DNA of 64,000 nucleotides, taken from assembly GCF_028728065.1 (NCBI RefSeq), contig NZ_CP117812.1, positions 620,001-684,000 on the forward strand. The letters are read 5' to 3'. This document shows, piece after piece, positions 29,518-53,810 of the stretch. The notes below the pieces were generated by a model. It had not been told where the DNA came from, ran no database searches, and saw only the letters and a program-made list of their open reading frames with translations. Numbering within the stretch: position 1 is the stretch's first letter; each line of letters starts with the position of its first letter. The DNA comes from Lentisphaera profundi. Lineage in GTDB: Bacteria > Verrucomicrobiota > Lentisphaeria > Lentisphaerales > Lentisphaeraceae. A program made the translations under genes and the position numbers.

Positions 29518-29696
29518 TATGATTTCCTCCCAATATTTTTCTCTAAACCCTGATAGAACTGGAGGTTCTCTTTGACTTCTTGCTGGCGATTTTGACAAAG
29601 TTCACAGGAGTTCAGGTGGCGCTGCCATACAAACTTTTTAATGCCAGCCTTGTCCTTTAATAAGAGCTCATGTTGAAATTCACTAAGACAATTCAT
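29517..29696 (-). CDS. small zinc-finger anti-sigma-like protein
   Basis: This 59-residue gene was read directly from sequence. Its ATG (29696) overlaps the sigma factor stop as ATGA and its TAA overlaps the kinase ATG as TAATG, so it is locked between the two by translational coupling. The motif H-L-N-S-C-E-L-C is the H-x3-C-x2-C of ZAS/zf-HC2 anti-sigma domains, and the remainder is helical and charged. ZAS proteins usually bind the ECF factor and release it on signal. Here it is soluble and much shorter than usual; the membrane part may be provided by the kinase. The function is inferred from motif and position. Confidence 0.78.
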   Translation of the reverse strand: MNCLSEFQHELLLKDKAGIKKFVWQRHLNSCELCQNRQQEVKENLQFYQGLEKNIGRKS

Positions 29697-30283
29697 TTTT
29701 CATCTCCCATTAAGCTATTGACGATAGGCCGTAAGCGTTTAAGAATTCGATGCTTGGCAACGTAGACTGACTCGATACTCAAACCAAGGGAGTCTGCAAC
29801 ACGATTGGCGTCTATCTGATCAATAAAGAGCATGACGAATGCCTCATAGGTCACTTCTGTTACTTGAGACTTAACTTTACTCAAAGCCTGATCAAGTAAA
29901 TGACGATGCCACTCGTCCATCCAATGCTGTTCACTTGACTCCAAATCTGTACTTTCCAAAACAACGCCACCTGTAGCGAAAGGGATTAATGTGCACTCTT
30001 TATTTTTTCGTTTGCGTAAAATATCAAAGGCCCGACGATCAATAATTTTCTTTAAATAATCTCTAAATCGACCTTTAGATTTATCAAACTTAAAGAGCGT
30101 TTCCCCCCTGTAGAGGCTTAACATAACTTCTTGAAAAAGGTCCGAGCTTTCATGATCAAATAGACCTCGGTCTTTACCTCGGAGATAAACTAGCTTACGA
30201 TAAGTCTTCGCAAATTCTTCCCAGGCGATGCCTTCTCCTGCGCGTAACTTTTCTATTACAGTATGTTGTGTTGTAAATGCCAT
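29693..30283 (-). CDS. ECF sigma factor linked to a Ser/Thr kinase
   Basis: The 196-residue protein has a sigma-70 region 2 (E-S-S-D-L-F-Q-E-V-M-L-S-L-Y) and region 4 (R-V-A-D-S-L-G-L-S-I-E-S-V-Y-V-A-K-H-R-I-L-K-R-L). The long linker with W-M-D-E-W is typical of the kinase-linked ECF groups described from Planctomycetes. GGA lies 7 bases before the ATG. It starts a three-gene overlapping operon with the zinc-finger peptide and the kinase. Phosphorylation of the sigma factor or of the ZAS peptide is a reasonable hypothesis, not shown by sequence. Confidence 0.9.
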   Translation of the reverse strand: MAFTTQHTVIEKLRAGEGIAWEEFAKTYRKLVYLRGKDRGLFDHESSDLFQEVMLSLYRGETLFKFDKSKGRFRDYLKKIIDRRAFDILRKRKNKECTLIPFATGGVVLESTDLESSEQHWMDEWHRHLLDQALSKVKSQVTEVTYEAFVMLFIDQIDANRVADSLGLSIESVYVAKHRILKRLRPIVNSLMGDEK

Positions 30284-31150: not shown

Positions 31151-31326
31151 CTCTTTTACTCTTTTACTCTTTTACTCTTTTACTCTTTTACTCTTTTACT
31201 CTTTTACTCTTTTACTCTTTTACTCTTTTACTCTTTTACTCTTTTACTCTTTTACTCTTTTACTCTTTTACTCTTTTACTCTTTTACTCTTTTACTCTTT
31301 TACTCTTTTACTCTTTTACTCTTTTA
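31151..31326. repeat. octanucleotide microsatellite, 22 perfect copies of CTCTTTTA
   Basis: The unit CTCTTTTA runs from 31151 to 31326 without a single mismatch, 176 bp in all. On the + strand every frame through it is open and would give an L-L-L-F-Y-S-F-T-type repeat. Because 8 is not a multiple of 3, any change in copy number shifts the frame. It sits 57 bases before the candidate operator of the next operon, so copy number could also change promoter spacing to elements further upstream. Confidence 0.95.
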
Positions 31327-31382: not shown

Positions 31383-31401
31383 TGAACGTTTTGAACGTTT
31401 T
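31383..31401 (+). promoter_or_regulatory. candidate MerR/LitR-type operator, site 1
   Basis: TGAACGTTTTGAACGTTTT is a direct repeat of GAACGTTTT with a 9-bp period. The identical 19 bases lie at 47403-47421 and a 17/19 match lies at 33307-33325 (minus orientation). All three stand 40-80 bases before operons of the light-response cluster. CarH/LitR proteins are known to bind tandem direct repeats. Confidence 0.65.
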
Positions 31402-31455: not shown

Positions 31456-31920
31456 ATGAAGGTCTTTAAGTTAGTCAGGCAACAGGATTTAGCAGTAAAC
31501 AGCAAAAGCTGCTGGGATTTTTTTGCAGATCCCCAAAACCTGAAAAAAATCACTCCCGCTTATATGGGATTCGATATTGTAGAAGGCGGGGGCAGTGAAA
31601 TGTATGCAGGACAAATTATAGCTTACAAAGTGAGCCCCCTACTAAATTTTAAAGTAACTTGGGTGACAGAAATTACTCATGTGAAAGAAGGGGAATTCTT
31701 TGTGGATGAACAGAGGTTTGGACCCTATAAATTTTGGCATCACAAACACTTTTTCCAAAGTATTCCCGGAGGGACACGTTGTCGTGATGAGATTCATTAT
31801 ATACCTCCAGTAAGTTTAATAGCACCTTTACTAAACCACTATTTAATTAAAGGTAAATTAAATGAGATATTTGATTATCGCGCAAAAATTTTAGAAGCAC
31901 AATTTGGCTTGGTGAAATAA
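31456..31920 (+). CDS. SRPBCC-family ligand-binding protein
   Basis: The 154-residue protein has the START/SRPBCC layout: an N-terminal strand ending with W-D-F-F-A-D-P-Q-N-L-K-K-I-T-P, central strands with V-T-W-V-T-E-I, and a long C-terminal helix. Such proteins bind hydrophobic ligands, lipids or polyketide-like molecules. AAAGG lies about 10 bases before the ATG; an overlapping ATG at 31451 is out of frame. The stop codon abuts the next start. Related genes are often found next to photolyase and SDR genes in light-response clusters, and a candidate operator lies upstream. Confidence 0.82.
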   Translation: MKVFKLVRQQDLAVNSKSCWDFFADPQNLKKITPAYMGFDIVEGGGSEMYAGQIIAYKVSPLLNFKVTWVTEITHVKEGEFFVDEQRFGPYKFWHHKHFFQSIPGGTRCRDEIHYIPPVSLIAPLLNHYLIKGKLNEIFDYRAKILEAQFGLVK

Positions 31921-32637
31921 ATGATTAAGATTGATTTGAGTAGTAAAAATATCTTGGTTGCGGGGAGTTCAGGAGCCATAGGTCAAGAACTGTGTAAGCA
32001 ATTCAAAGTGGCGGGAGCTAATGTTTGGAGCTTAAGTCGACATGAATCAGAGGCAGTGGATCATTTTTGTATTGATTTAAGCAAGCAGGAAAGTGTCGAA
32101 AGTTTAAAAGAACAATTTCAAGAAAGTAAAATCAAGATAGATGGAGTCATCAATTGTGCTGGTTTACTGCACGACGAGACAAATTTACCTGAACGTCAGT
32201 TAAGAGATATAAAAGATGATTGGCTATTGCGTAGCATGGAAGTAAACCTTTTGAGTCATATTCATTTAGCTCAGTCTGTAGAGGGTTTTATGGAAGATTC
32301 AAAAGCTTTTAAATGGATGTCTTTATCTGCCATGGTGGGAAGTATAGAAGACAATGGTTTAGGAGGTTGGTACAGCTATAGAATTAGCAAAGTGGGTTTG
32401 AATATGTTTATCAAGGGTTTGTCGATCGAATGGAAGCGAAAAAATAAAGAGCTTTGTGTAGTGGCCGTGCACCCTGGGACAACGGAATCGAAGATGTCAA
32501 AAATTTTCAAAATTAAGAAAGACAAGCTCTACTCAGCAGAATTGAGTGCGTCGAGATTATTGAAAATCTATGGGACTTTGACAAATGAGTCTAATGGTCA
32601 GTTTTTAAACTGGGACGGAAGCCAATTGGCGTGGTGA
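31921..32637 (+). CDS. short-chain dehydrogenase/reductase
   Basis: The 238-residue protein has the nucleotide-binding stretch V-A-G-S-S-G-A-I-G-Q-E (about 12-22), N-C-A-G near residue 80, and the catalytic Y-S-Y-R-I-S-K (Tyr and Lys three apart) near 155-161. It starts directly after the SRPBCC stop codon, so the two are translationally linked. Classical SDRs of this length act on small alcohols, sugars or lipids with NAD(P). Within this cluster a lipid or aromatic substrate is possible. A homologous SDR leads the operon at 47479. Confidence 0.88.
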   Translation: MIKIDLSSKNILVAGSSGAIGQELCKQFKVAGANVWSLSRHESEAVDHFCIDLSKQESVESLKEQFQESKIKIDGVINCAGLLHDETNLPERQLRDIKDDWLLRSMEVNLLSHIHLAQSVEGFMEDSKAFKWMSLSAMVGSIEDNGLGGWYSYRISKVGLNMFIKGLSIEWKRKNKELCVVAVHPGTTESKMSKIFKIKKDKLYSAELSASRLLKIYGTLTNESNGQFLNWDGSQLAW

Positions 32638-32638
32638 G

Positions 32639-33064
32639 ATGATGGATATTTTATTGATTTTACATATACTGACCGCGATATTTTTATGTGGATTAATTTG
32701 GGTGATTCAAGTGCTTCATTATCCGAGTTTTCATTATGTAGAAGAATCGAAGTTTATACAATTTGAAAAATTTCATGCGAAAAAAATATCGTACTTGGTG
32801 ATGCCAGCTATGCTGATAGAGTTTTTGACTGCGATATATTTTTGCTACCATTTTCAAGATGACTATTTATGGTGGATAAATTTGAGTGCAATAGCTTTAA
32901 TTTGGTTGTCAACAGCATTTTTAAGTGTGCCCTGTCACAACAAATTATCTCGTGGAAAAGATACAGGAGTGATTAATCGCTTAATCATTTCTAATTGGCC
33001 ACGAACAATAATTTGGTCAGCAAAGCTAATTGTATTGTGGATGATTATTAGAAAATTTTATTGA
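32639..33064 (+). CDS. small membrane protein with four helices
   Basis: The 141-residue product begins at 32639 or at the adjacent ATG (32642), with GGTGAG just upstream. It has four hydrophobic helices with H-Y-P-S-F and a cytoplasmic F-H-A-K-K and a P-C-H-N-K-L motif between helices 3 and 4. The family is not recognised with certainty; it resembles small DUF1772-like membrane proteins. It ends the first operon of the light cluster, overlapping the 3' end of the opposite-strand gene at 33058 by seven bases. Confidence 0.75.
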   Translation: MMDILLILHILTAIFLCGLIWVIQVLHYPSFHYVEESKFIQFEKFHAKKISYLVMPAMLIEFLTAIYFCYHFQDDYLWWINLSAIALIWLSTAFLSVPCHNKLSRGKDTGVINRLIISNWPRTIIWSAKLIVLWMIIRKFY

Positions 33065-33306: not shown

Positions 33307-33325
33307 AAATCATTCAAAACGTTCA
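33307..33325 (-). promoter_or_regulatory. candidate MerR/LitR-type operator, site 2
   Basis: On the minus strand the sequence reads TGAACGTTTTGAATGATTT, differing from sites 1 and 3 at two of 19 positions. It lies between the divergent small gene (33255) and the photolyase gene (33382), so it could control both. Confidence 0.6.
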
Positions 33326-33381: not shown

Positions 33382-34679
33382 ATGATTGCGTATTGGTTTA
33401 GAAGAGATTTGCGTTTAAAGGATAATCACGCTCTTTTTCGTGCTTTGAGTGAAAATGCTGAAGTCTTACCAGTTTTCATCTTTGATAGAAGGATTTTAGA
33501 GAAATTAGCTAAGAAAGATCGTAGAGTTGATTATATACATCGTCGTTTAAGTGAATTAGATTCTTATTTGCGTTCCAAGGGATTGAGCGGGATACTCGTT
33601 CTTCATGGTGATGTTGATAAGTGTTGGCAAAAAATTCATGAAGAATATGATTTAGAGGGAGTTTATTGTAATCGTGATTATGAACCGAATGCAATAGATC
33701 GCGATTTTCGCCTTGAAGAGTATCTAAGAGCAAAGGGCTCCTATCTGAAGAGCTTCAAGGATCAAGTGATTTTTGAAGAATCCGACATTCTTAAATCTGA
33801 TAAGACACCCTATACGATTTATACTCCATACAAAAAACAGTGGCTAAATCATTTTGATGATAGTTTAGTAGAAGCCTATCCAAGTGAGAAACATTTAAAG
33901 AATATGAGTCGTAAACAGATTCCTGAAATGCCAAGTTTAGCAAACTTAGGATTTGAAAAGAGTGATTTAATTGAACCACCTATGGAAATTAATGAGAGTT
34001 TTGTAAAAGACTACGACCAGGTACGTGATTTTCCTGCACTCAATAAAACGAGTCGTCTTTCTGTCGCTTTACGCTTTGGTACTGTGAGTGTGAGATTCTT
34101 AGTACGCCGAGCTCGAGTTCTGAATGAAACGTGGCTAAGTGAACTGATTTGGCGTGAATTTTTCATGATGATTATAAGTCATTTTCCCGACTCAAGTCAT
34201 GAGGAGTTTAAACAGAAGTACAGTAAAATTAAGTGGCGTAATGATGAAGAGGAATTTGCCTTGTGGTGTGCGGGTAAAACAGGCTATGAATTAGTGGATG
34301 CGGGAATGCGAGAACTCAATGAAACAGGCTTTATGCATAATAGAGTGCGCATGGTAGTGGCCTCATTTCTGGTAAAACACTTACTCATTGATTGGCGTTG
34401 GGGGAGCGTTATTTCGCTAAAAAATTACTGGATTATGATTTGTCTGCTAATGTGGGTAACTGGCAGTGGGCGGCAGGAACTGGCTGTGATGCGGCCCCAT
34501 ACTTTCGAGTTTTTAATCCCTATACCCAAGCAGAAAAATTTGATAAAAAGCGCGAGTATATTAAACGTTGGGTTCCCGAAGTGGATACAGTTTTATATCC
34601 CCAAGTCATGCTTGATCATAAAGAAGGACGTGAACGAGCCTTACGTGTTTATAAAGAAGGCTTGGCATTATATGATTAA
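33382..34679 (+). CDS. phr: deoxyribodipyrimidine photolyase, broken by a -1 frameshift
   Basis: The N-terminal part (W-F-R-R-D-L-R-L at residue 5) and the FAD-binding C-terminal domain (V-D-A-G-M-R, M-H-N-R-V-R-M, L-L-I-D-W-R-W-G) are those of a class I CPD photolyase. At 34400-34404 there are five G where six are needed. After that point the conserved continuation G-E-R-Y-F-A-K-K and N-V-G-N-W-Q-W-A is read in another frame and ends at the TAA at 34677. With one added G the gene would give 432 residues, a little short but complete. As it stands, translation runs on in the wrong frame into the downstream gene. It may be a real mutation, a slippery site or a sequencing error. Confidence 0.92.
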
Positions 34680-35169
34680 GTTATTATTATTATTTATGTT
34701 TTGCTTGAGTTTAAATGGGCAAAGTAGCAAATTCAATTTTGATAAACGCGATTATCAAGTTTTCAGTGAATTAGACTTTACCTGGTATTTTTTCGATGTT
34801 TACCATGTTAAAGTGTGGACGACGGATAATGAATTCCCCGATTATGTGAAGCCATTTATTATGACTTATGAATATCGCAGAGACATAAAAGCGAAAGATT
34901 TGATAAAGACGAGTCAAGAAGAATGGGATAGATTAAAACTGTGTACTCTGACACAAAGTAAGTTGTGGGCAGATCAATTAAGTAAGATTTGGCCAGATAT
35001 CAGTTCAGGCGATTCATTAAGCGCATGGTTCGATGGAGAAAATACGCATTTTTATCAGCAAGAAAAATTCTTAGGGAAAGTATCCAATAAAGATTTTAGT
35101 CGGGCCTTTTTTCAGATTTGGCTCCATAAAAAATCACAAACATCTGAATTGCGAAAGGGCTTAAAATGA
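34672..35169 (+). CDS. chalcone-isomerase-like exported protein
   Basis: The ATG at 34672 overlaps the photolyase stop region (ATGATTAA) and opens a signal peptide M-I-K-L-L-L-L-F-M-F-C-L-S-L-N-G. The 165-residue product has the F-D-V-Y-H-V-K-V-W strand and the M-T-Y-E-Y-R-R-D segment of the chalcone isomerase-like family seen in bacterial photolyase/Cfa clusters. Its catalytic activity is unknown; a fatty-acid-binding role has been suggested for the fold in plants. Because of the photolyase frameshift it is also the C-terminal end of a long fused frame starting at 33382. Confidence 0.8.
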   Translation: MIKLLLLFMFCLSLNGQSSKFNFDKRDYQVFSELDFTWYFFDVYHVKVWTTDNEFPDYVKPFIMTYEYRRDIKAKDLIKTSQEEWDRLKLCTLTQSKLWADQLSKIWPDISSGDSLSAWFDGENTHFYQQEKFLGKVSNKDFSRAFFQIWLHKKSQTSELRKGLK

Positions 35170-36649: not shown

Positions 36650-37051
36650 TTAATTCTGATAGAAAGATGAAAGGAAATTCAGGGCAGTGAAGCCTTGATT
36701 GAAATCATTCTTGTCAGAGAAAAAACTATCGGGATCAACATGACCATCGGCTAAGTTTGAAGAGAGATTTTTGAAGCCCATGGACCAATCAGCAAAACAA
36801 CGCTCTGGAATTTCTTTGCGTGAGAGTACTAAAATTTCGTCATGTCGCTTATCTTTAGAAATGATGGTGAAGACCTTCTCTATATCTTCTTGCTTACCCT
36901 CGAGTGCCTGCATAAATTCGCCATTTTTATAAATGAGCATTCCACTAATATTCTTCTGTGAATTATTAGGTCGTGAAATTTTAAGGATAGCCTCAAGGTC
37001 CTGAGGGGCCATTGGACTCGTAGCACGGCTAATATAAATGAGGGTGAACAC
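36650..37051 (-). CDS. BLUF-domain blue-light sensor
   Basis: The GTG at 37051 is preferred: AGGAG lies 8 bases upstream and the protein then begins F-T-L-I-Y-I-S-R, the standard BLUF start. The upstream in-frame ATG (37099) adds an unlikely hydrophobic 16 residues. In the 133-residue product Tyr6, Asn30 and Gln48 have the same spacing as the flavin-switch Tyr, Asn and Gln of short BLUF proteins, in Y-I-S, P-N-N and F-M-Q-A-L-E-G; D-W-S-M-G-F supplies the Trp/Met region. It is a short one-domain BLUF and so must signal by protein contact. It sits next to the photolyase operon and is a candidate partner for the MerR-type regulator at 51967. Confidence 0.93.
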   Translation of the reverse strand: MFTLIYISRATSPMAPQDLEAILKISRPNNSQKNISGMLIYKNGEFMQALEGKQEDIEKVFTIISKDKRHDEILVLSRKEIPERCFADWSMGFKNLSSNLADGHVDPDSFFSDKNDFNQGFTALNFLSSFYQN

Positions 37052-37288
37052 GGTAATAACTCCTAAGCAATTTCCAAAAATATACCCGAGTATAGACAAA
37101 GCTCAACTGTAATGTCTGATTGTCAATGATAATATTTTTGAGGGCATAGAAGTGATCGAGAGATTTTGTGGAGTCACAGTTCTGTGGGAAAGCTTTGTTA
37201 CCTAGCTGATTTCTAAATAAAAATTCCTCGGCTAGAGCTTCCAGAAACCACCTGATAAAAGATATATGTTCAGTATTAGGGCTAAAGC

Positions 37289-37313
37289 CTGGCTTTTATA
37301 CACTTTTTTGAAG
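37289..37313. repeat. left terminal inverted repeat
   Basis: Exact reverse complement of 39272-39296. The stop codon of the small gene (37296-37298) lies inside it. Confidence 0.95.
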
Positions 37314-37631
37314 AGCTAATAATTCGAGGGAAAGGTCTATCCATTCACCAGTCAATTGTTTAAGTTTTTTATAGTTGTGAATTTGCTCTGAAACATTGTG
37401 TAGATCTGCTTCTTTTATGAACTGTGTATATCCTTTGCCTTTTCTCCTATAACTAAGCTTATGATATGGCCCATGCTTTTGGGGATCCTGCTTGTCTTTA
37501 CACTTACAGCTGGGGTTTCCACACACATTATATTGTTGTGAAATACTTCCAGGTCGGAGTTCTCCTAGTTCAGAGATTTCCTGTTTTATTCTTTCGATTC
37601 GTGCTTTTATTTCCTGATCAGTTTTACTCAT
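37296..37631 (-). CDS. small DUF6788-like Cys-motif protein of the insertion element
   Basis: The start at 37631 (G-rich site AGGGGC about 8 bases upstream) gives 111 residues; the 26 residues upstream would be encoded by a palindrome and are rejected. An N-terminal coiled coil is followed by C-G-N-P-S-C-K-C and H-G-P-Y-H-K-L-S-Y-R-R-K-G-K, a zinc-finger-like module found in small proteins that accompany transposases. A leucine-rich helix closes the protein. It is transcribed away from the transposase. It could be a DNA-binding regulator or a target-selection protein, but no activity is known to me. Confidence 0.72.
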   Translation of the reverse strand: MSKTDQEIKARIERIKQEISELGELRPGSISQQYNVCGNPSCKCKDKQDPQKHGPYHKLSYRRKGKGYTQFIKEADLHNVSEQIHNYKKLKQLTGEWIDLSLELLALQKSV

Positions 37632-37651
37632 TATAAAGCCCCTTTTATTCG

Positions 37652-37699
37652 TTGAAATAATTACCGATATCACTATAGTGATATCGGTAATTATTTCAA
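37652..37699. promoter_or_regulatory. perfect 48-bp palindrome between the two IS genes
   Basis: Bases 37652-37675 are the exact reverse complement of 37676-37699; the centre reads TATCACTATAGTGATA. It lies 20 bases before the small gene start and 29 before the transposase start. It could be an operator for both genes, or a hairpin that hides their ribosome-binding sites in read-through transcripts. Confidence 0.9.
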
Positions 37700-37728
37700 T
37701 ATAAATCAATCGATGGAAGGTGATTAAA

Positions 37729-39264
37729 ATGATAGCGGAAAAAGAACTGGAGCTATGGCATGAACTTGCTCAAAAAGTTGGGATGAAACATCTTTCTACG
37801 AAGAAGGCTTTTCTACGTCAGCTGGAGCTATATAGCAACTCACCTACGGGATCATCATGTCAAATAGCGGGTAGGTCCCCAAGTACTCTTCCTTGGAGTG
37901 AAGTTATTTCTACGTATCGTTTTATGGATAATGAAAATATTAGTTTAAAGGCTTTGCGTAGTTTTCGTCGTGAGCTCAGCTTAGCACATCACCCCAAAGG
38001 AAGTGATGTACTAGTCATGAACGATATTTCATTATTAGACTATTATCATCACACTACCAAGGAAGATCGACGAGCTATTGGTGACGGCAAAGGGAAAGGT
38101 TATGAGTATGTTTGTAACCTTGCGGTCAACCCAAGTGATGGAGGTGTCCTAGGCGTTCTTCACGATTGTCTAGTTAACTGTGATGGGCCTGACGATGTGG
38201 ATATGGTGGATTATTCAGATTCGTATCTGAAGAAATATCTGAGCACAGATGATTTAGAAGAAATCAAAGAAAACCATAAACACCAAATGGTCTCTCATAT
38301 TCGCGCTAGTGCAGAGCACTTGAAAGAGTGGAACCCAATTCATGTAGGAGATCGGGAGTTTGATGATATTTTTATCATGTTAGCCACGATGGATAAAAAC
38401 CATGATTTTGTACTGCGAGCCAAGAGTATTCGGAATGTTCAAACACCAAATTTTGACGCGTTACCTGAATCCGCTCTTGTAAAAAAACAGGGTGGACATC
38501 CCATGAAAGATGGATATGTCTGTACAAAAATTAGTGAACTTATCAAGTATATCCCACTCAGTCCTTATAAGGAATTGCCCTTAGATGGACGCGGTCGAGT
38601 AACGGAGCAGATAAATGCTAAACGTAACGCGCAATTACATATAGGCAGTGTACCAATCAGCTTATATCGTCAGGCCAAACGAAATCATAAATATATAAAA
38701 ACCCCGCAAGCAGTAGATGTCAATTTAGTTGTTATCAAAGAACTTAACCCTCCTGAAGGTGAAGAACCTTTGTTGTGGATTCTTTTTACAAACAGGGATG
38801 TAGATACCTTAGAAAAAATGACCTATATTGGAAAAATTTATGAATTGAGGTGGAAAATTGAGGAATTTTTTCGCCTCTTAAAGACCACTTATAAATTGGA
38901 GCAAGCACGCTATAATTCAGCTTCCAAAGTCGCCCGTTACCTAGTTTTAATAACTATTGCAGCTCAAATGACCATGAAACTCCGAAGTCTTGCGGGTATT
39001 AGTCAATCAGCTTCTCTCGACGATGAGGAATACCATAAAGTCAAAGAAGCCATGAAACACCCAAATGATGATAAGATCGACATCAATTTGAGACTCTTTG
39101 CTCTTATCGCTCGTAGAGGCGGTTGGTTAGGACGAAGGCGAGACCCCATTGGTTCAACAATTTTATCCAGGGGTATGATGGATGTCTTGACCGTATTGCA
39201 ATTTCAACAAGAACACAAAGACTTGTTAAATGAACTGCAAAATAATCCTCAAAATATCTTTTAA
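37729..39264 (+). CDS. IS4-family DDE transposase
   Basis: The ATG at 37729 has GGAAGG 8 bases upstream, so the GTG at 37720 inside that site is not used. The 511-residue protein has a short N-terminal DNA-binding part with S-P-S-T-L-P-W-S-E-V and M-D-N-E-N, then the catalytic domain with V-M-N-D-I-S (first Asp), H-V-G-D-R-E-F-D (second Asp) and the Y-(2)-R-(3)-E-type signature in Y-E-L-R-W-K-I-E-E-F-F-R-L-L-K. This is the IS4/Tn5 organisation. Length and reading frame are complete. Confidence 0.94.
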   Translation: MIAEKELELWHELAQKVGMKHLSTKKAFLRQLELYSNSPTGSSCQIAGRSPSTLPWSEVISTYRFMDNENISLKALRSFRRELSLAHHPKGSDVLVMNDISLLDYYHHTTKEDRRAIGDGKGKGYEYVCNLAVNPSDGGVLGVLHDCLVNCDGPDDVDMVDYSDSYLKKYLSTDDLEEIKENHKHQMVSHIRASAEHLKEWNPIHVGDREFDDIFIMLATMDKNHDFVLRAKSIRNVQTPNFDALPESALVKKQGGHPMKDGYVCTKISELIKYIPLSPYKELPLDGRGRVTEQINAKRNAQLHIGSVPISLYRQAKRNHKYIKTPQAVDVNLVVIKELNPPEGEEPLLWILFTNRDVDTLEKMTYIGKIYELRWKIEEFFRLLKTTYKLEQARYNSASKVARYLVLITIAAQMTMKLRSLAGISQSASLDDEEYHKVKEAMKHPNDDKIDINLRLFALIARRGGWLGRRRDPIGSTILSRGMMDVLTVLQFQQEHKDLLNELQNNPQNIF

Positions 39265-44357: not shown

Positions 44358-45026
44358 TTAATTTTTAAGAAGAGAAAGGAATTCACTGCGAGTCGCAGGA
44401 TTAGATTTAAACTTACCTCCAAGCTTCGACGTGTAAGTATGAGAGGAGCTATCTTCAACACCGCGAGCTTTCACACAATAATGTGTGGCATCGATCACTA
44501 CGGCAACATCTTGCGTATCGAGTATGTATGATAAGGCATGGAAAATCTGATGATTCAGACGTTCTTGAACTTGTGGACGTCGACTAAAGTAATTGACAAT
44601 ACGATTAATTTTACTGAGCCCGAGTACTTTTCCATTGGGGATGTAAGCGACATGAGCAAAACCATCGATGGTAACAAAGTGATGTTCACAATTGGACATG
44701 ACTTTTATGTCTCGAACGAGTACCATCTCGTCATAATTTATTTTATTATCAATAGTGGTACACTTCGGGAAATGAGCTGGATTGAGTCCGCAAAAGAGTT
44801 CGTTTACATACATTTTAGCCACTCGATTGGGGGAATCATGGAGGCTATCGTCACTCAGGTCTAAACCAAGTGTTTCCATTATCTCCTTGAAGTGTGAGGC
44901 GATTTTTTTAATCTTCTGAGCATCGCTCATGCTTGAAGGCTTCAAGGGTGTATTTTGGCCTTGTTGTTTGAGGAATTCTTCGAGTTCAAGACCAAGGGTA
45001 GGGTTGTTTTTTTGTAATGTAGACAT
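44358..45026 (-). CDS. folE: GTP cyclohydrolase I
   Basis: The start at 45026 is chosen because AAGGAG lies about 6 bases upstream; the open frame extends 7 codons further but overlaps the previous stop. The 222-residue enzyme has S-N-C-E-H-H-F with the zinc Cys/His, G-L-S-K-I-N-R-I-V and [11 protein letters not shown]. It makes dihydroneopterin triphosphate for folate and other pterins. An N-terminal extension of about 40 residues is present. In this context the pterin may serve as a photolyase antenna precursor or as a cofactor of an oxygenase; this is inference. Confidence 0.95.
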
Positions 45027-45039
45027 GGCGGACTCCTTT

Positions 45040-45483
45040 TTATTCACAAGTTGAGATTTTATTTAAAAAACGATCGGGGATAGGGATAGCTTCTGGATTG
45101 CTTTCACCATCACTACTATAGAGGCAGCAAATAGCAGAATAACTGCCTTTGAGAACAAGCTCTTCAGAGCTAGGGTTTATCTTGTATATTTCAACTGAAT
45201 AGATAATGCCTGCGGAGCGAATTTTTTTAATACTCAGATCAACGCGGACTTGATCGCGAAAGCGCAGTGGTCGGAGAAATTTCACGTTCATCTCTGCGCG
45301 TGGCCATCCGGTACCTTTATTATTTTCATCAAATTCACCGACGACGGGTTCATCAATCGCTTCAAAAAAAGCATACTCAGTTTCTTCGATCCAGTGGAAA
45401 TAATTTGAATGATGAACAATGGCTCCAAGATCGGTTTCGTGGAGTCGGACGGTAAAGTGTTTAGAATGAGAAGAAATTTTCAT
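45040..45483 (-). CDS. acyl-CoA thioesterase (4HBT hotdog fold)
   Basis: The 147-residue product has [20 protein letters not shown], the active-site helix start of the 4-hydroxybenzoyl-CoA thioesterase/YbgC group, with the catalytic Asp in T-D. AAGGA lies 5 bases before the ATG, 8 bases after the desaturase stop. It would free fatty acids or small acyl groups from CoA and may work with the desaturase before it. Confidence 0.92.
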
Positions 45484-47402: not shown

Positions 47403-47421
47403 TGAACGTTTTGAACGTTTT
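47403..47421 (+). promoter_or_regulatory. candidate MerR/LitR-type operator, site 3
   Basis: TGAACGTTTTGAACGTTTT, identical to site 1, in the 141-bp region between the divergent operons that start at 47337 (minus) and 47479 (plus). It can therefore act on both. Confidence 0.65.
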
Positions 47422-47478: not shown

Positions 47479-48228
47479 ATGAGTACATCAATCAAAAGTC
47501 GAGTCGTATGGCTCTGTGGGGCCAGCACCGGAATAGGTCGTGCTCTAGCGAATGAATTGCTCTCGACTGAAGTGAATTTGATAGTTAGCTCTCGTGAAAT
47601 CAATCGTTTAAATGAATTTATGGGCAAGGCCTACTTTTTAAAATGTGATGTTAATAATCAAGATGATTGGCGAAGAAGTGCCCAAGAAGTCGAGAAGCTT
47701 TTCGGCAGGGTAGATACCTTTATATATAATGCGGGTGACTGTGAGTATATTGACGTTCGTGATCTTAAATATGATGCTTTTGAAAGAGTGATGAAAGTTA
47801 ATTTCCTTGGGATGCTAAGAGGCTTGGAGTATGTATTACCTATGATGCGAAAGGGTAATCATCCACACATTGTAGGTGTGAGTAGCTCGGTAGATTACTT
47901 CCCTTTACCCACTGCAGAAGCTTATGGTGCGAGTAAAGCCGCTCTCAATTACATGTTGGAGAGTCTTCGCGTAGATCTAGCACCTGAAGGAATTGATGTA
48001 AGCATTGTTAAGCCAGGATTTGTGAAAACACCCTTAACAGATAAGAACGATTTTCCGATGCCCTTTATTATAAGTGCGGAGGAGGCAGGAAAGAGAATTC
48101 ACAAGGGAATACAAAAACGTTCACATGTGATCGATTTCCCGAGACGTTTTACGTGGATGATACGTTTGATGGGGCTAATGCCGAGTTCAATACGGTTTAT
48201 ATTGAGTAGGAGATTTAGTAGAAGATGA
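47479..48228 (+). CDS. short-chain dehydrogenase/reductase
   Basis: The 249-residue protein has the cofactor motif C-G-A-S-T-G-I-G-R-A, Y-N-A-G near 86 and the catalytic Y-G-A-S-K. AGGA lies 8 bases before the ATG. It opens the operon with COG2907, DUF1365, the Cfa-type enzyme, DUF2878 and the MerR-type regulator; gene ends overlap by four bases. Such an SDR accompanies this set in many proteobacteria, so a role in making the modified lipid is plausible. Confidence 0.93.
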   Translation: MSTSIKSRVVWLCGASTGIGRALANELLSTEVNLIVSSREINRLNEFMGKAYFLKCDVNNQDDWRRSAQEVEKLFGRVDTFIYNAGDCEYIDVRDLKYDAFERVMKVNFLGMLRGLEYVLPMMRKGNHPHIVGVSSSVDYFPLPTAEAYGASKAALNYMLESLRVDLAPEGIDVSIVKPGFVKTPLTDKNDFPMPFIISAEEAGKRIHKGIQKRSHVIDFPRRFTWMIRLMGLMPSSIRFILSRRFSRR

Positions 48229-49466
48229 AAAAAGTTGCCATTATTGGAACGGGTATCTCGGGACTGAGTGCGGCCTACAAGTTGAAAGATGATTACGATG
48301 TTCATCTCTTTGAAGCGGGAAATTATATTGGTGGCCATACCAATACTCTTGAGGTAAAAGAAAATAACAAAACTTTAAATATTGATACTGGTTTCATTGT
48401 TTTTAACGATTGGACTTATCCCAATTTCATTAAATTGATGGATGAATTAGGCGTTGAATCACAAGTGAGTGACATGAGTTTTTCGGTTAAATGCGAGGAA
48501 TCGGGCTTAGAGTATAATGGCACATCACTGAATACTTTATTTGCTCAGCGTCGCAATATGCTCAAGCCAAGTTTTTGGAAAATGATTAAGGATATATTGA
48601 ATTTTAATAAAGCGGCTTTGCTTTGGTTAGAACAGGCAGATGTAAATGATGCTACCACCTTAGGTCAGTATATAGAGCCTTATGGTGATTTGTTTAGAGA
48701 TAAATATATCTTACCTATGACGGCCGCGATTTGGTCAGCAGGACGAGAAAGTTCTTTAAATTTCCCCTTGCGTTTTTATCTGAATTTCTTTAAGAATCAC
48801 GGTTTCTTGAGTGTGGATGAGCGCCCTGTTTGGAGGGTTATAAAAAATGGATCAAAAGCTTACATACCTAAAATAATAGCTGGTTTTGAAGATAAAATAT
48901 ATTTGGAATGTCCCGTAATATCTGTAAAAAGACTTAAGGGAGGCGTGAGCTTATCGACCAAACGTGGTGAAGAGTTCTTTGATGGAGTTATTTTTAGCTG
49001 CCACAGTGATCAAGCTCTAAAGATTTTAGGAGATGCAACGCAAGAAGAGCAAGATATTCTGGGAGCAATCCCGTACCAAGCGAATGAAGCCATTTTACAT
49101 ACAGATCAAAGCGTTCTCCCTAAGCGTCCTTTAGCATGGGCAGCGTGGAATTATCATCTCACGGGGCAGGTGTCAGATTTGGCTTCTTTAACTTATAATA
49201 TGAACATCCTTCAAAGTTTAGATTGTGAAAAAAGCTATAATGTGAGCCTAAATTATGATAAGATTGATAAGAGCAAAATTATTCGTAAGATTTCGTATTC
49301 TCATCCCGTCTTCACCTTAGAGGGAGTGAAAGCGCAAAAGCGTCATAGTGAAATAAGCGGAGTGAATAATACCTTCTTTGCAGGAGCTTATTGGTCTTAC
49401 GGTTTTCATGAAGATGGAGCGATGTCTGGACTCAAAGCTGCGGAACAGTTGCGAGGCATATTATGA
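48225..49466 (+). CDS. FAD-dependent oxidoreductase, COG2907 type
   Basis: The 413-residue enzyme starts with V-A-I-I-G-T-G-I-S-G-L-S-A-A, the FAD-binding Rossmann fold, then G-G-H-T-N-T and G-F-I-V-F-N-D-W-T-Y-P-N-F, and A-G-A-Y-W-S-Y-G-F-H-E-D-G near the C-terminus. COG2907 proteins are amine-oxidase-like and are found with DUF1365 and Cfa-like methyltransferases in clusters controlled by singlet-oxygen or light. They are thought to oxidise or desaturate acyl chains of lipids. Gene overlaps with both neighbours show one operon. Confidence 0.93.
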   Translation: MKKVAIIGTGISGLSAAYKLKDDYDVHLFEAGNYIGGHTNTLEVKENNKTLNIDTGFIVFNDWTYPNFIKLMDELGVESQVSDMSFSVKCEESGLEYNGTSLNTLFAQRRNMLKPSFWKMIKDILNFNKAALLWLEQADVNDATTLGQYIEPYGDLFRDKYILPMTAAIWSAGRESSLNFPLRFYLNFFKNHGFLSVDERPVWRVIKNGSKAYIPKIIAGFEDKIYLECPVISVKRLKGGVSLSTKRGEEFFDGVIFSCHSDQALKILGDATQEEQDILGAIPYQANEAILHTDQSVLPKRPLAWAAWNYHLTGQVSDLASLTYNMNILQSLDCEKSYNVSLNYDKIDKSKIIRKISYSHPVFTLEGVKAQKRHSEISGVNNTFFAGAYWSYGFHEDGAMSGLKAAEQLRGIL

Positions 49467-50212
49467 ATGCGGCAATCTTTCATGGGAAAGTGAGACATCG
49501 ACGTTTATTGCCGAAGTCGCATGAATTTGTCTATTCATTATTTCTTACTTGGCTTCCCGAAAAAGACCTCAACAAAAAATTTGATTTTTTAGGTTTATTT
49601 TCAAGTTCAAAATTCCCCGCCTTGATTAAATATAAGCGTGAGAATTATCTGAGTCCTCACGACATCAGTTTATCAGAAGCCTGTGCGCTTCGCATCAAAA
49701 ATGATCTGGGTTTCGATTATGAAGGAGAGGTCTGCCTGCTCACTAACTTACAGTATTTTGGTTTCTGTTTTAATCCCGTGAGTTTTTATTATTGCTACGA
49801 TTTAGATAATCAATTGGTAGCAGTTGTAGCTGATATTAATAATACGCCTTGGGATCAAAGACATAGTTATTGTATTGATATGCGAAAGAAGCATCAAGTC
49901 GTTAAAAATTTTGATAAAGAGTTTCATATATCGCCATTTATGCCCATGGATATTCGCTATCGCTGGATCTTTAAGAATCCCGATAAAAACTTATTGATTT
50001 ATATGCAGAACTATCGCCAAGATAATTTGATGTTTGATGTCTGTCTCAAGCTTAAAAAACAAAAATTTAGTTTATCCAAATTATGTCAATTTGCAGTCTT
50101 ATATCCACTTATTCCCATGAAAATCATGATGGGGATTTACTGGCACGCGCTACGTCTTTACTTAAAGAAAATACCTTTTTATAGTCATCCAAAAACAGGA
50201 GAAAACTCATGA
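49463..50212 (+). CDS. DUF1365 protein
   Basis: The 249-residue protein has the family start F-H-G-K-V-R-H-R-R-L-L-P-K-S-H, then F-G-F-C-F-N-P-V-S-F-Y-Y-C and N-N-T-P-W-D-Q-R-H-S-Y. Its function is unproven; it is nearly always between COG2907 and a Cfa-type methyltransferase. The start and stop overlap the neighbours by four bases. I infer a part in acyl-chain modification in the inner membrane or in transferring it. Confidence 0.94.
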   Translation: MNAAIFHGKVRHRRLLPKSHEFVYSLFLTWLPEKDLNKKFDFLGLFSSSKFPALIKYKRENYLSPHDISLSEACALRIKNDLGFDYEGEVCLLTNLQYFGFCFNPVSFYYCYDLDNQLVAVVADINNTPWDQRHSYCIDMRKKHQVVKNFDKEFHISPFMPMDIRYRWIFKNPDKNLLIYMQNYRQDNLMFDVCLKLKKQKFSLSKLCQFAVLYPLIPMKIMMGIYWHALRLYLKKIPFYSHPKTGENS

Positions 50213-51459
50213 GTGGAATCAAACTAGAAACCGAGAAGTTTGCCTTAGGGAAATCAATTTCACTTCCCAATAGCTTAGCCCGTAAATTCTTTTTTAAATT
50301 TGCGGAGAAATTACGCTTTGGCGAATTACATATTATTGAAGATGGTGAGCGTCATATTTTTGGAGAAAAAACGGATCTATGTGCAGAGATAAAAATACAT
50401 AGTAAAGATGTCTACGCTGATTTGATTCTCGGAGGGAGTTTAGCTGCTGGAGAATCCTATATGAAAGGTGATTGGGATAGCGATGATTTAAGTCAGTTTA
50501 TCAGTCTTTTTGCTCGTAATATGGAGCTAGTTAATAGTATGGATGGTGGGCTCGCTAAGATTGCTAGCCCGATTCTTAGAGGGGCACATTGGTTAAACCG
50601 CAATACTCGTAGTGGATCGAAAAAAAATATCGAAGCACATTACGATTTAGGGAATGATTTTTTCAAGACTTTTCTCGATGAAACGATGATGTATAGCGCC
50701 GCAATTTTCCCCAATGAGCAAGCGACCTTACATGAAGGGCAGCTCAATAAATTGAAAACAATTTGTGAGCGACTTGAACTGAGTGCGGACGATCATTTAC
50801 TCGAAATCGGAACGGGTTGGGGAGCTTTGGCCATCTACGCAGCAGAGAACTATGCTTGTCAGGTCACCACCACAACTCTTTCTAAAGAACAATTTAGCTT
50901 AGCAACTGAACGTATTAAGCAAAAAAATCTACAGGATAAAATTACCGTTGTCCTCAAAGATTACCGTGATTTAGAAGGGACTTACGATAAGTTGGTTTCT
51001 GTAGAAATGGTGGAGGCTGTGGGCCATGAATATCTCCCGGATTATTTTAGATCATGTAGCCATTTATTAAAACCCAATGGTCTCTTTCTGATGCAGGTCA
51101 TCACTATTCCAGATCAACGTTATGAAAGAGCTCGTAAAGATATTGATTTTATAAAACGTTACATTTTTCCAGGTTCGTGTATTCCTTCCGTTGAACGCAT
51201 TATGTCCTGTGTTAGTAAAGAAACAGATATGCGTTTATTAGATCATCGTGATTATACTAAGGATTACTCAAAAACCTTGAAAATGTGGCATCAGAATTTA
51301 CTCCATCAGCAGCAGCGTGTTATTGATCTCACGAGTCAAGAATTCCTCCGCATGTGGCGTTTTTACTTCTCGTATTGTGAGGGTGGTTTTCAAGAGTTTG
51401 CGATTGGTTCCGCACAGATGGTTTTTGCTAAACCCCATAATAGAACACAGTTAAAATAG
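50209..51459 (+). CDS. cyclopropane-fatty-acyl-phospholipid synthase-like methyltransferase
   Basis: The 416-residue enzyme has the family pattern: an N-terminal domain, Y-D-L-G-N-D-F-F near 145, and an AdoMet motif L-L-E-I-G-T-G-W-G-A-L-A near 200. Later S-V-E-M-V-E-A-V-G and Y-I-F-P-G-S-C-I-P are typical Cfa active-site parts. It adds a methylene or methyl group to a double bond in phospholipid acyl chains. With COG2907 and DUF1365 it may make methylated or furan-type fatty acids that act against singlet oxygen; that link comes from homologous clusters. Confidence 0.95.
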   Translation: MSGIKLETEKFALGKSISLPNSLARKFFFKFAEKLRFGELHIIEDGERHIFGEKTDLCAEIKIHSKDVYADLILGGSLAAGESYMKGDWDSDDLSQFISLFARNMELVNSMDGGLAKIASPILRGAHWLNRNTRSGSKKNIEAHYDLGNDFFKTFLDETMMYSAAIFPNEQATLHEGQLNKLKTICERLELSADDHLLEIGTGWGALAIYAAENYACQVTTTTLSKEQFSLATERIKQKNLQDKITVVLKDYRDLEGTYDKLVSVEMVEAVGHEYLPDYFRSCSHLLKPNGLFLMQVITIPDQRYERARKDIDFIKRYIFPGSCIPSVERIMSCVSKETDMRLLDHRDYTKDYSKTLKMWHQNLLHQQQRVIDLTSQEFLRMWRFYFSYCEGGFQEFAIGSAQMVFAKPHNRTQLK

Positions 51460-51467
51460 AGTCCTGT

Positions 51468-51980
51468 ATGCCGTCTAAATCCCATAAGATATTTAACGCC
51501 TTGCTCTATCAAGTGGGATGGTTTGCCTGTATGATAATTGCCAATCCGATATACGGTGCAATTGCTATGCTTGTGATGATAGCTCTACATCTATCTTTTG
51601 TAAAAGAGCGTGTGAAGGAATTTGTTTTTATTATTGTTGCAGCAAGCATGGGCTACGGGCTTGATATAGCTTTGTCGAAAATGGCTTATCTCGATCTTAC
51701 AATAAAAACCAGTGGAACTTATTATTTACTTATATTATGGATATTATTCTCTACGACTTTGCGTTCATCCATGAGTGTGGTTTTAACAAAGAGGAAATGG
51801 GCTGTTTTACTTGGCTTAAGTGCTCCATGGGCTTATTGGGTTGGACAAAATTTAGGAAGAGTTCATTATACCGAACCCTTTATTTTATCAATGTCGCTTC
51901 ATGCTTTATTATGGGCACTATTGATGTGTTTTTTATACTACTTTAACGACAAATTGTTTGGACATCATGAAAAGCTTTAG
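51468..51980 (+). CDS. DUF2878 membrane protein
   Basis: The 170-residue protein has six hydrophobic helices with Q-V-G-W-F-A-C near the start, L-Y-Y-F-N-D-K near the end and W-I-L-F-S-T-T-L-R-S-S in the middle. It fits the DUF2878 family that recurs in this cluster. The function is unknown. The 3' end overlaps the MerR-type gene by 14 bases, so both are made from one message. Confidence 0.85.
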   Translation: MPSKSHKIFNALLYQVGWFACMIIANPIYGAIAMLVMIALHLSFVKERVKEFVFIIVAASMGYGLDIALSKMAYLDLTIKTSGTYYLLILWILFSTTLRSSMSVVLTKRKWAVLLGLSAPWAYWVGQNLGRVHYTEPFILSMSLHALLWALLMCFLYYFNDKLFGHHEKL

Positions 51981-52800
51981 CCCCAGAGAAATAGCCACGG
52001 CCTTAGACGTGAGTCAAGCCAGCATCAAGCGCTGGGTTGACAAGGGCTTAATTGAGGCTGAAAAAACCGCTGGCGGTCATCGCCGCATTACCTTGCAGGC
52101 TCTAAAAAGCTATCTTGATGCAAATAATAAGACTTTGGCTAATCCGGATATTTTGGATTTGCCTCATAGTAGCGGACGCGCCAAAACAAAACTCAAAGAT
52201 AGCCAAGCAACTTTTAGTGATGATTTACGTCAATGCAATGATTCCCGTGTTCGTGCTTTGATTTACGATTTGTTTCTCAGTGGTACATCTTGTAGTCAGC
52301 TTTTTGATGAGCTGGTTAAACCTGCAATAAAGTCAATTAAATTGAGTTTTGCGAGTGGTGAGATTGATGATTTTCAAGAACAGCGCAGCTTACAGATTTG
52401 TCAGCGTTTACTCTTTGGTTTTGAACAATACTTTAAGGCGCCAAATCAAGATGCTCCCCATGCCTTATTAGGGACTTTAAGTAGTGATAAAAATACACTA
52501 GAAATCCAAATGTTGGAAGTTTGTTTACGGGAAAAAGGCATGCGTACAGAATTTTTGGGTAGTGAATTAAACCCATTATCATATCAGCGCGCTTTAAAAA
52601 TACTCAAACCTCAAGTCTTAGCCTTGGGTTTTTCAGTCTTGTCTGAGCAGTCTTTAGCAGAACTGCATGTTTTAGAGGAGTTTTGTTACGAAAATCAAAT
52701 TTTATTTTTCTTAATTACGGATTTACCTGTTAATGTAGAAGAAGAATTTGAGACCATTATTCCCGTCCCCAATTTTGCTGCAATAGATTCATTTTTATAA
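51967..52800 (+). CDS. MerR-family regulator with B12-binding-like domain (LitR/CarH type)
   Basis: The ATG at 51967 lies inside the end of DUF2878. The 277-residue protein has a MerR helix-turn-helix with S-P-R-E-I-A-T-A-L-D-V and A-G-G-H-R-R-I, a helical middle part (about 85-150) and a C-terminal cobalamin-domain-like fold. Where CarH has E-x-H-x-x-G for cobalt binding, this protein reads S-D-K-N-T-L-E, so the His ligand and Gly are absent. The W-x9-E-H light-switch motif was not found either. It resembles the class of LitR proteins that do not bind B12 and work with a BLUF partner in Pseudomonas. It likely represses the operons that carry the TGAACGTTTT boxes. Confidence 0.88.
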   Translation: MKSFSPREIATALDVSQASIKRWVDKGLIEAEKTAGGHRRITLQALKSYLDANNKTLANPDILDLPHSSGRAKTKLKDSQATFSDDLRQCNDSRVRALIYDLFLSGTSCSQLFDELVKPAIKSIKLSFASGEIDDFQEQRSLQICQRLLFGFEQYFKAPNQDAPHALLGTLSSDKNTLEIQMLEVCLREKGMRTEFLGSELNPLSYQRALKILKPQVLALGFSVLSEQSLAELHVLEEFCYENQILFFLITDLPVNVEEEFETIIPVPNFAAIDSFL

Positions 52801-52865
52801 TTTAGTATTTGATACAGTGCGTTAAGATCAAACTTTGATTTTGTGTACTAATAAAGGAGTAGGAA

Positions 52866-53810
52866 ATGAGTAAAATTAAGATAGGTTTATCTGCGTGTTT
52901 AGCGGGTGAAAACGTGCGTTACAATGGGCAGAATTCTTTAAATAAACTAATTACACAAGACTTGGAAGAGTATTTCGAGTATGTAAAAGTTTGTCCTGAA
53001 GTAGCTATTGGAATGGGGACACCGCGAGAGACTATTCGAGTAGTACGAGATGGTGAATTACAGTTACGTGCTTCGCGAAGCAATACTGATTACTCGAAAG
53101 ACATGCGCGATTTTGCGAAGGCAGATATGAAGCGTGTGGCCGATGCCGATCTCTGTGGTTTTATTTTCAAAAAAGGTTCGCCGAGTTGCGGAGTCTTTCG
53201 TGTCAAAATTTATAATACGGATGGGATGCCTCAGGTCGAAAAAACGTCAGGTTTTTATGCGGCTCAAGTGATGGAGAGTTTCCCATGGCTGCCAGTTGAA
53301 GAAGAAGGGCGACTCAATGATCCCCCCTTATTCGAGAACTTTATTCAAAAAACATTTGCCTTGGGTCACTGGAAAGAGATGCTTAAAGAAGGCTTAAGTC
53401 ATAAAGGCCTACTCGATTTTCATCAATATCATAAGTATTGGATTATGGCTCATAATCAAGCGGGGCTTAAGCGCTTGGGCAAAATGTTGGCGAATCGCGG
53501 TGAGCGTAGTGTCGAAGAATTAGCGAGTGAGTATCTTAAGGAGTACAGCGAAATAGTTCATCGCCCACCGACCTCACTCAAACATTCTAATGTACTGTAT
53601 CATCTCCTGGGATATTTTAAGCAGGATATAGATTCCTTCGACAAGGGAGAAATGGTAAAACTTATCGAGCAGTACCGTGAAAATCATATTCCACTCGTAG
53701 TACCAATTACACGTTTGGCATATTTTGCGAAAAAATATAAGCAGGAGTATTTACTCAATCAGAGTTACTTACGTCACCCCGAAAATTTGGGTGTTCTTAA
53801 TCGTTTATAA
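52866..53810 (+). CDS. DUF523-DUF1722 fusion protein (YbgA-like)
   Basis: The 314-residue product has an N-terminal DUF523 (S-A-C-L-A-G-E-N-V-R-Y-N-G, V-C-P-E-V near 41, G-S-P-S-C-G near 104) and a C-terminal DUF1722 (F-H-Q-Y-H-K-Y-W-I-M-A-H, about 180-300). GGAG lies before the ATG. The two conserved Cys of DUF523 may bind metal. Such fusions sit beside photolyase genes in many bacteria and are often under LitR-type control. The reaction is unknown. Confidence 0.94.
   Translation: MSKIKIGLSACLAGENVRYNGQNSLNKLITQDLEEYFEYVKVCPEVAIGMGTPRETIRVVRDGELQLRASRSNTDYSKDMRDFAKADMKRVADADLCGFIFKKGSPSCGVFRVKIYNTDGMPQVEKTSGFYAAQVMESFPWLPVEEEGRLNDPPLFENFIQKTFALGHWKEMLKEGLSHKGLLDFHQYHKYWIMAHNQAGLKRLGKMLANRGERSVEELASEYLKEYSEIVHRPPTSLKHSNVLYHLLGYFKQDIDSFDKGEMVKLIEQYRENHIPLVVPITRLAYFAKKYKQEYLLNQSYLRHPENLGVLNRL

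Follow-up and report, generated by a model that had tools for sequence, protein, structure and literature searches.

A probable B12-independent CarH/LitR-like regulator with a candidate direct-repeat operator at photoprotection genes of Lentisphaera and Planctomycetota

The locus investigated in this study raises the question whether a MerR-type regulator of Lentisphaera profundi, which resembles the CarH-type photoreceptors, can still rely on cobalamin and, if not, by which route light would reach it. The protein is encoded within a window of 64,000 nucleotides (contig NZ_CP117812.1, positions 620,001 to 684,000), the whole stretch of DNA that was analysed, whose relevant features are listed in Table 1. 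A preliminary description of this DNA had assigned the protein to the MerR/LitR regulators, had considered its cobalamin binding to be apparently lost and had predicted a light switch formed together with a short BLUF protein. To our knowledge, no BLUF-MerR light switch with a free-standing BLUF protein is known outside Proteobacteria.

The assignment as a MerR/LitR-like protein is borne out by its domain organization and predicted fold. Its reading frame extends from an ATG at 51967 to a stop codon ending at 52800, with an alternative TTG start at 51958 being less likely. Pfam recognizes HTH_17 (2e-8) and MerR (1.2e-6), both within the first 53 residues, and finds no match in the rest of the protein, where B12-binding_2 and B12-binding are both absent at E<=0.001. 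The relationship of this remaining part is revealed by a profile of six relatives, which matches CtMerR (PDB 8jbs), a protein that binds adenosylcobalamin, with E=2e-29 over the HTH and the sensor domain, followed by photocobilins and methionine synthase. Structure prediction of the C-terminal domain, which had been proposed as a check, was carried out with AlphaFold and resulted in a model of the regulator with a pLDDT of 84, where this domain shows a cobalamin-domain fold and whose best matches in the PDB are 8jbs (E=2e-12) and full-length CarH from T. thermophilus. Since the profile match is accompanied by a confident model with these proteins as best matches, the C-terminal half is, as judged from the prediction, a genuine cobalamin-domain homologue. 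Pfam matches and predicted model together display the architecture of class I CarH, consisting of a MerR HTH, a four-helix cap and a Rossmann fold. The HTH matches BldC and the model also matches AppA, in which a BLUF domain is joined to a cobalamin-like domain.

Whereas the regulator shares the winged HTH, the four-helix cap and the Rossmann fold with class I CarH/LitR of T. thermophilus and with CtMerR, it differs from both in the absence of the cap Trp, the His of the Glu-His pair and the ligand His. The elements common to CarH-type photoreceptors were described as GxxW, EH, GxxH and GxxxP (PMC11796333); in comparison to the CarH signature, the regulator carries D-K-N in place of E-x-H and F..E-Q in place of W..E-H. 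The stretch S-D-K-N-T-L-E, comprising residues 173-179, is paired by HMMER with G-D-L-H of CtMerR, which places Asn 176 at the column of the ligand His and confirms the earlier observation that the His of the E-x-H-x-x-G motif is absent. This column contains a Tyr in 22 of the 25 other aligned proteins and a His in none of them. Similarly, Phe 128 is located at the position of the cap Trp, so that the Wx9EH signature is not present, and the Glu-His site reads E138-Q139, with Arg substituting for the His in 23/25 other proteins. The combination of D-x-Y and W-x9-E-R is found in the Lentisphaerales relatives and in most aligned members from Planctomycetota, whereas within the genus Lentisphaera the Tyr column has drifted to N/L/I and the Trp column to F/H/Y. 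The possibility that another His might have taken the place of the ligand was addressed by alignment and no such residue was identified: the regulator contains H38, H67, H165 and H234, the sole invariant His is H38 of the DNA-binding domain, and no substitute ligand His is conserved in the sensor domain in the family alignment with six relatives. The proposed loss of cobalamin binding thus stands with respect to the missing ligand set, but not as a recent change in one protein, since the His is missing throughout the family, where it is usually replaced by Tyr. As judged from the alignment, the whole family shares the absence of the ligand His, to which the genus Lentisphaera has added further drift, and the family probably does not use adenosylcobalamin in the manner of CarH, although a cofactor could still be coordinated by the Tyr of the relatives. 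In view of the absent ligand set, light would have to reach the regulator in some way other than B12.

The likely function of the protein is reflected in its genetic neighbourhood. The regulator is part of an operon spanning 47479-53810, which encodes a short-chain dehydrogenase (SDR), an FAD oxidoreductase, a DUF1365 protein, a fatty-acid methyltransferase, a DUF2878 protein, the regulator itself and RudS. In sister genomes the regulator is flanked by the same gene block, and in 10 of the 20 Planctomycetota loci that were fetched the genes of FAD oxidoreductase, DUF1365 and methyltransferase are found nearby, with a photolyase in proximity in two others; regulators of both phyla hence adjoin either this trio or photolyase genes. 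The photolyase gene of the window codes for 595 amino acids (33382-35169), with Pfam covering only part of its FAD domain, and an ECF-type sigma factor gene (29693-30283) lies at the margin of the light cluster.

Table 1. Location of the regulator, its candidate operators and associated genes within the window
Feature	Position	Strand	Remarks
Candidate operator TGAACGTTT-TGAACGTTT, 9-bp direct repeat, 60 bp ahead of the regulator's operon	47403..47420	+	
Candidate operator TGAACGTTT-TGAACGTTT, 57 bp ahead of the genes at 31456-33064	31383..31400	+	
Candidate operator in variant form, TGAACGTTTTGAATGATT, ahead of the photolyase gene	33308..33325	-	
Polyketide-cyclase-like protein, SDR and third gene, downstream of the operator at 31383	31456..33064	+	
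DNA photolyase with C-terminal chalcone-isomerase-like domain	33382..35169	+	
Short BLUF protein, candidate photoreceptor partner	36650..37054	-	Pfam BLUF 8e-31
GTP cyclohydrolase I (FolE), divergent gene set	44358..45047	-	
SDR, first gene of the operon	47479..48228	+	Order conserved in relatives
FAD-dependent amine-oxidase-type oxidoreductase	48225..49466	+	Close to regulator in 10/20 fetched Planctomycetota loci
DUF1365 protein	49463..50212	+	
Cyclopropane/UfaM-type fatty-acid methyltransferase	50209..51459	+	
DUF2878 membrane protein, overlapping the regulator start	51468..51980	+	Own operator in two sister genomes
MerR/HTH_17 regulator with cobalamin-domain-like C-terminal half, 277 aa	51967..52800	+	ORF, Pfam, profile match, AlphaFold
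Cap helix F128..E138-Q139, site of CarH Wx9EH	52348..52383	+	Alignments; signature from PMC11796333
S-D-K-N-T-L-E codons, ExHxxG site, N176 at ligand-His column	52483..52503	+	Alignments
RudS-type TudS-DUF1722 tRNA 4-thiouridine desulfidase	52866..53810	+	Family per PMC11417400; operator ahead of gene in sister genome G004

A related set of genes has been described for the class II LitR proteins of Pseudomonas, where the light-induced set includes photolyase, SDR, FAD oxidoreductase, UfaM and FolE, with folE being light-inducible (PMC9758184), and RudS genes were reported in light-responsive operons (PMC11417400). The latter study refers to class II LitR as adenosyl-B12 dependent, which contradicts PMC9758184. 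With respect to gene content, neighbours of the photolyase, FAD oxidoreductase, UfaM and FolE type are all present near the regulator, and its assignment to a light- and UV-protection cluster has held up. The resemblance to class II LitR, which we draw from its description rather than from a comparison of sequences, concerns a B12-independent MerR regulator with neighbouring genes of the same kinds, which class II LitR represses in the dark (PMC9758184). It does not extend to the partner, which in Pseudomonas is a short LOV protein, whereas none was found here, nor to the operator, which is T(G/A)TACA there and a TGAACG(T/A)TT direct repeat here. Moreover, class II LitR matches B12-binding_2 but not B12-binding of Pfam, whereas the regulator matches neither and is similar by profile only.

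The candidate operator has the consensus TGAACG(T/A)TT in two copies, which form an exact 9-bp direct repeat at the TGAACGTTT-TGAACGTTT sites. Three exact and two near copies are contained in the whole Lentisphaera genome, with the two located beyond the window preceding genes of a fasciclin-SOUL protein and of a photolyase-family protein. The former (L065, 126-1439), a heme-binding protein, is one of several cases, as fasciclin-like genes in sister genomes likewise carry the operator. In these genomes the repeat is found ahead of the regulator's operon every time, and it also heads genes of photolyases, a DPRP cryptochrome-like protein, RudS, DUF2878, flavin reductase and 4HBT proteins. Its occurrence among 79 genomes of the class follows that of the regulator, with 4-6 sites in each of the five genomes that contain it, whereas 71 of the 74 genomes without regulator lack the repeat and three carry a single one-mismatch site each; it is also absent in the family member devoid of the regulator. 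The arrangement is reminiscent of BldC, which uses a related HTH to bind direct repeats of 9 bp in a head-to-tail manner (PMC5859096), although BldC consists of an HTH alone, without sensor-like domain, and recognizes a different repeat sequence. As far as can be judged from sequence, direct repeats of the kind used in BldC-type DNA binding are thus present at the promoters. The Pseudomonas-type operator TGTACA was found in six copies in the window, compared to 9.8 expected, none of them at relevant promoters, and a search for core promoters identified only weak sigma-70-like matches with no confident placement. Upstream of the operon starting at 31456, the region 31151-31326 is made up of an 8-bp unit (CTCTTTTA) repeated 22 times without mismatch; this array ends about 57 bp before the operator and is a possible slippage-prone upstream element.

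The distribution of the regulator extends beyond its own order. Close homologues are found in five of six genomes of the family within Lentisphaerales, and the named relatives comprise Lentisphaera marina, Lentisphaerales MAGs and one Planctomycetota MAG. In Planctomycetota, 392 genomes were sampled, and 78 of them contain a member of the family at a threshold of E<=1e-15. A search of the phylum Verrucomicrobiota outside Lentisphaerales retrieved only general cobalamin or HTH proteins, and a plasmid collection contained a single distant match from Rhizobium. The predicted occurrence of such a regulator outside Proteobacteria is thus evident from its host. A weight matrix built from Lentisphaerales sites alone and scanned over 400 bp upstream of Planctomycetota regulator genes located the repeat in 16 of 30 loci, or in 18 if two incomplete loci read by hand are included, with shuffled upstream sequences providing no match. 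The same candidate operator is therefore kept across phyla at regulators that are only about 30% identical, which ties it to the regulator as a putative binding site. At 12 of the 30 loci no upstream site was detected, and subfamilies that use different operators or serve different functions may thus exist within the family.

The mechanism that we consider fairly likely is that of a B12-independent CarH/LitR-like regulator of photoprotection genes in a lineage of Lentisphaerales and Planctomycetota, which would act on a direct-repeat operator and receive a light or stress input other than B12. In such a mechanism, the BldC/MerR-like HTH_17 domain would bind the two copies of TGAACG(T/A)TT at promoters in a head-to-tail manner, as suggested by the TGAACGTTT-TGAACGTTT sites, and, by analogy to known systems, the bound protein would confer repression rather than activation. 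In the dark, the regulator would most likely repress its own operon from SDR to RudS, including itself, and likewise unlinked genes of photolyases, cryptochrome-like and membrane- or lipid-protecting proteins, thus probably acting as an autoregulating repressor of a photoprotection regulon. Light or photo-oxidative stress would relieve this repression by an input that is probably provided by a partner protein, as in case of Pseudomonas class II LitR and E. coli BluR.

For Lentisphaera, the best candidate for such a partner is the lone short BLUF protein, which upon excitation by blue light might bind the regulator and lift it off the operator. We regard this assignment as tentative. The gene is real and encodes the only BLUF protein of the genome; its description as a member of the same cluster is loose, in view of a distance of 15 kb from the regulator and an adjoining transposon, and does not hold in four Lentisphaerales relatives, where BLUF and regulator are unlinked, in one case residing on separate contigs of a three-contig assembly. 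The transposon (37296-39264, coding for a DUF6788 protein and a DDE transposase) suggests that the BLUF gene may have arrived at its position near the light cluster only recently. A precedent is provided by BluF-BluR of E. coli, the known BLUF-MerR pair (PMC3509220), and not, as previously stated, by class II LitR of Pseudomonas (PmlR2/PplR), which relies on a short LOV protein as partner (PMC9758184). Both the E. coli system and the one described here combine a MerR-type repressor, putative in our case, with a BLUF protein in the same organism, although BluF also possesses an EAL domain and its gene adjoins that of BluR (PMC3509220), a protein for which no cobalamin-like domain was described. 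Neither linkage nor shared regulation of this type was found in our analysis, as the genes are unlinked in relatives and no operator precedes a BLUF gene at any locus examined.

The pairing is also addressed by co-occurrence. A BLUF protein is present in all five regulator-bearing Lentisphaerales genomes compared to 2 of 74 without regulator (Fisher p=9e-7, uncorrected for kinship, which could explain the association), and the family member without regulator also lacks BLUF. The match of the regulator model to AppA is in line with such an interaction. Conversely, identity falls to 33-39% for the BLUF proteins from the other genus of Lentisphaerales, and in Planctomycetota BLUF was found in only 14 of 78 genomes with regulator, with none detectable in 64. 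The Planctomycetota MAG with the nearest homologue likewise has no BLUF. The excess in this phylum is weak once genome size is held constant (odds ratio 2.8, p=0.009), and six of the 14 genomes form one tight clade. In two sister Lentisphaera genomes (L025, 6182-8162; L026, 7686-9514), the genes of BLUF and a fatty-acid desaturase adjoin each other, a conserved pair that is separate from the regulator, and one Planctomycetota genome with regulator contains two adjacent BLUF genes (G457:C30:7759-8494).

A short LOV protein as alternative partner was not identified in six family genomes by either motif or homology, which favours BLUF as candidate. The motif D/NCRFLQ gave a single match (NCRFLQ), which falls within a helicase-like reading frame of a sister genome, and the best PAS matches of a PpSB1-LOV query are kinase-like proteins without the Cys motif. 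In Planctomycetota the motif occurs in 84 of 392 genomes, and as the reading frame around it in fetched loci could almost never encode a LOV protein, these matches are mostly due to chance. Since even this chance motif shows an apparent link to the regulator (Fisher p=0.002), the similar value obtained for BLUF has to be viewed with caution. With BLUF unlinked in relatives, devoid of an operator and absent in 64 of 78 Planctomycetota genomes, a BLUF-MerR switch in Lentisphaera is conceivable, but rather unlikely, and the more specific proposal of a B12-free LitR/CarH branch with a 9-bp direct-repeat operator that is switched in Lentisphaera by a free-standing BLUF protein appears doubtful.

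Alternatively, the degenerate cobalamin-like domain might itself act as sensor for another ligand, such as a tetrapyrrole, a flavin or a corrinoid bound without His, with D-x-Y being part of a new pocket. The strong conservation of the Tyr, Asp and Arg replacements in Planctomycetota suggests a functional pocket instead of decay, and there is precedent in the SCHIC domain of AppA, a cobalamin-like fold with another cofactor. We still consider this mechanism unlikely, as the genus Lentisphaera has lost both the Tyr and the Trp and a pocket based on Tyr would not work in the regulator studied here.

Rather than being controlled by a photoreceptor, the regulator might also sense reactive oxygen or a different light-generated stress signal, as proposed for the MerR-like VCA0056 of V. 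cholerae, which would mediate a blue-light response through reactive oxygen species (PMC5241685). Judged by its description, VCA0056 resembles the regulator as a MerR-like protein encoded beside a photolyase gene and is needed for some of the response to blue light (PMC5241685), although it originates from another phylum; from PMC9758184, it is probably a B12-independent class IV LitR. The C-terminal domain of the regulator contains no conserved Cys among the invariant positions of the family alignment, which argues against such an input, and we view it as improbable. Finally, it is very unlikely that the TGAACGTTT repeat is a sigma-factor promoter or the site of another protein, since, despite the likeness of TGAAC to ECF -35 elements and the ECF-type sigma factor gene in the window, two abutting 9-bp copies suit a head-to-tail binder and not a -35/-10 pair, and the repeat tracks the regulator and is located at its gene in a second phylum.

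Collectively, our study has newly identified a candidate operator and photoprotection regulon of a B12-free LitR-like regulator in two phyla. A literature search of partial coverage retrieved neither publications on this family or its operator nor a description of any regulator that responds to light in Lentisphaera or Planctomycetota. With candidate operator, regulon and regulator family at hand, a light-responsive regulator in these organisms becomes directly testable. Our results illustrate that CarH-like proteins can abandon B12 without losing their fold or the kind of genes they target, which raises the question of how the light input was replaced.
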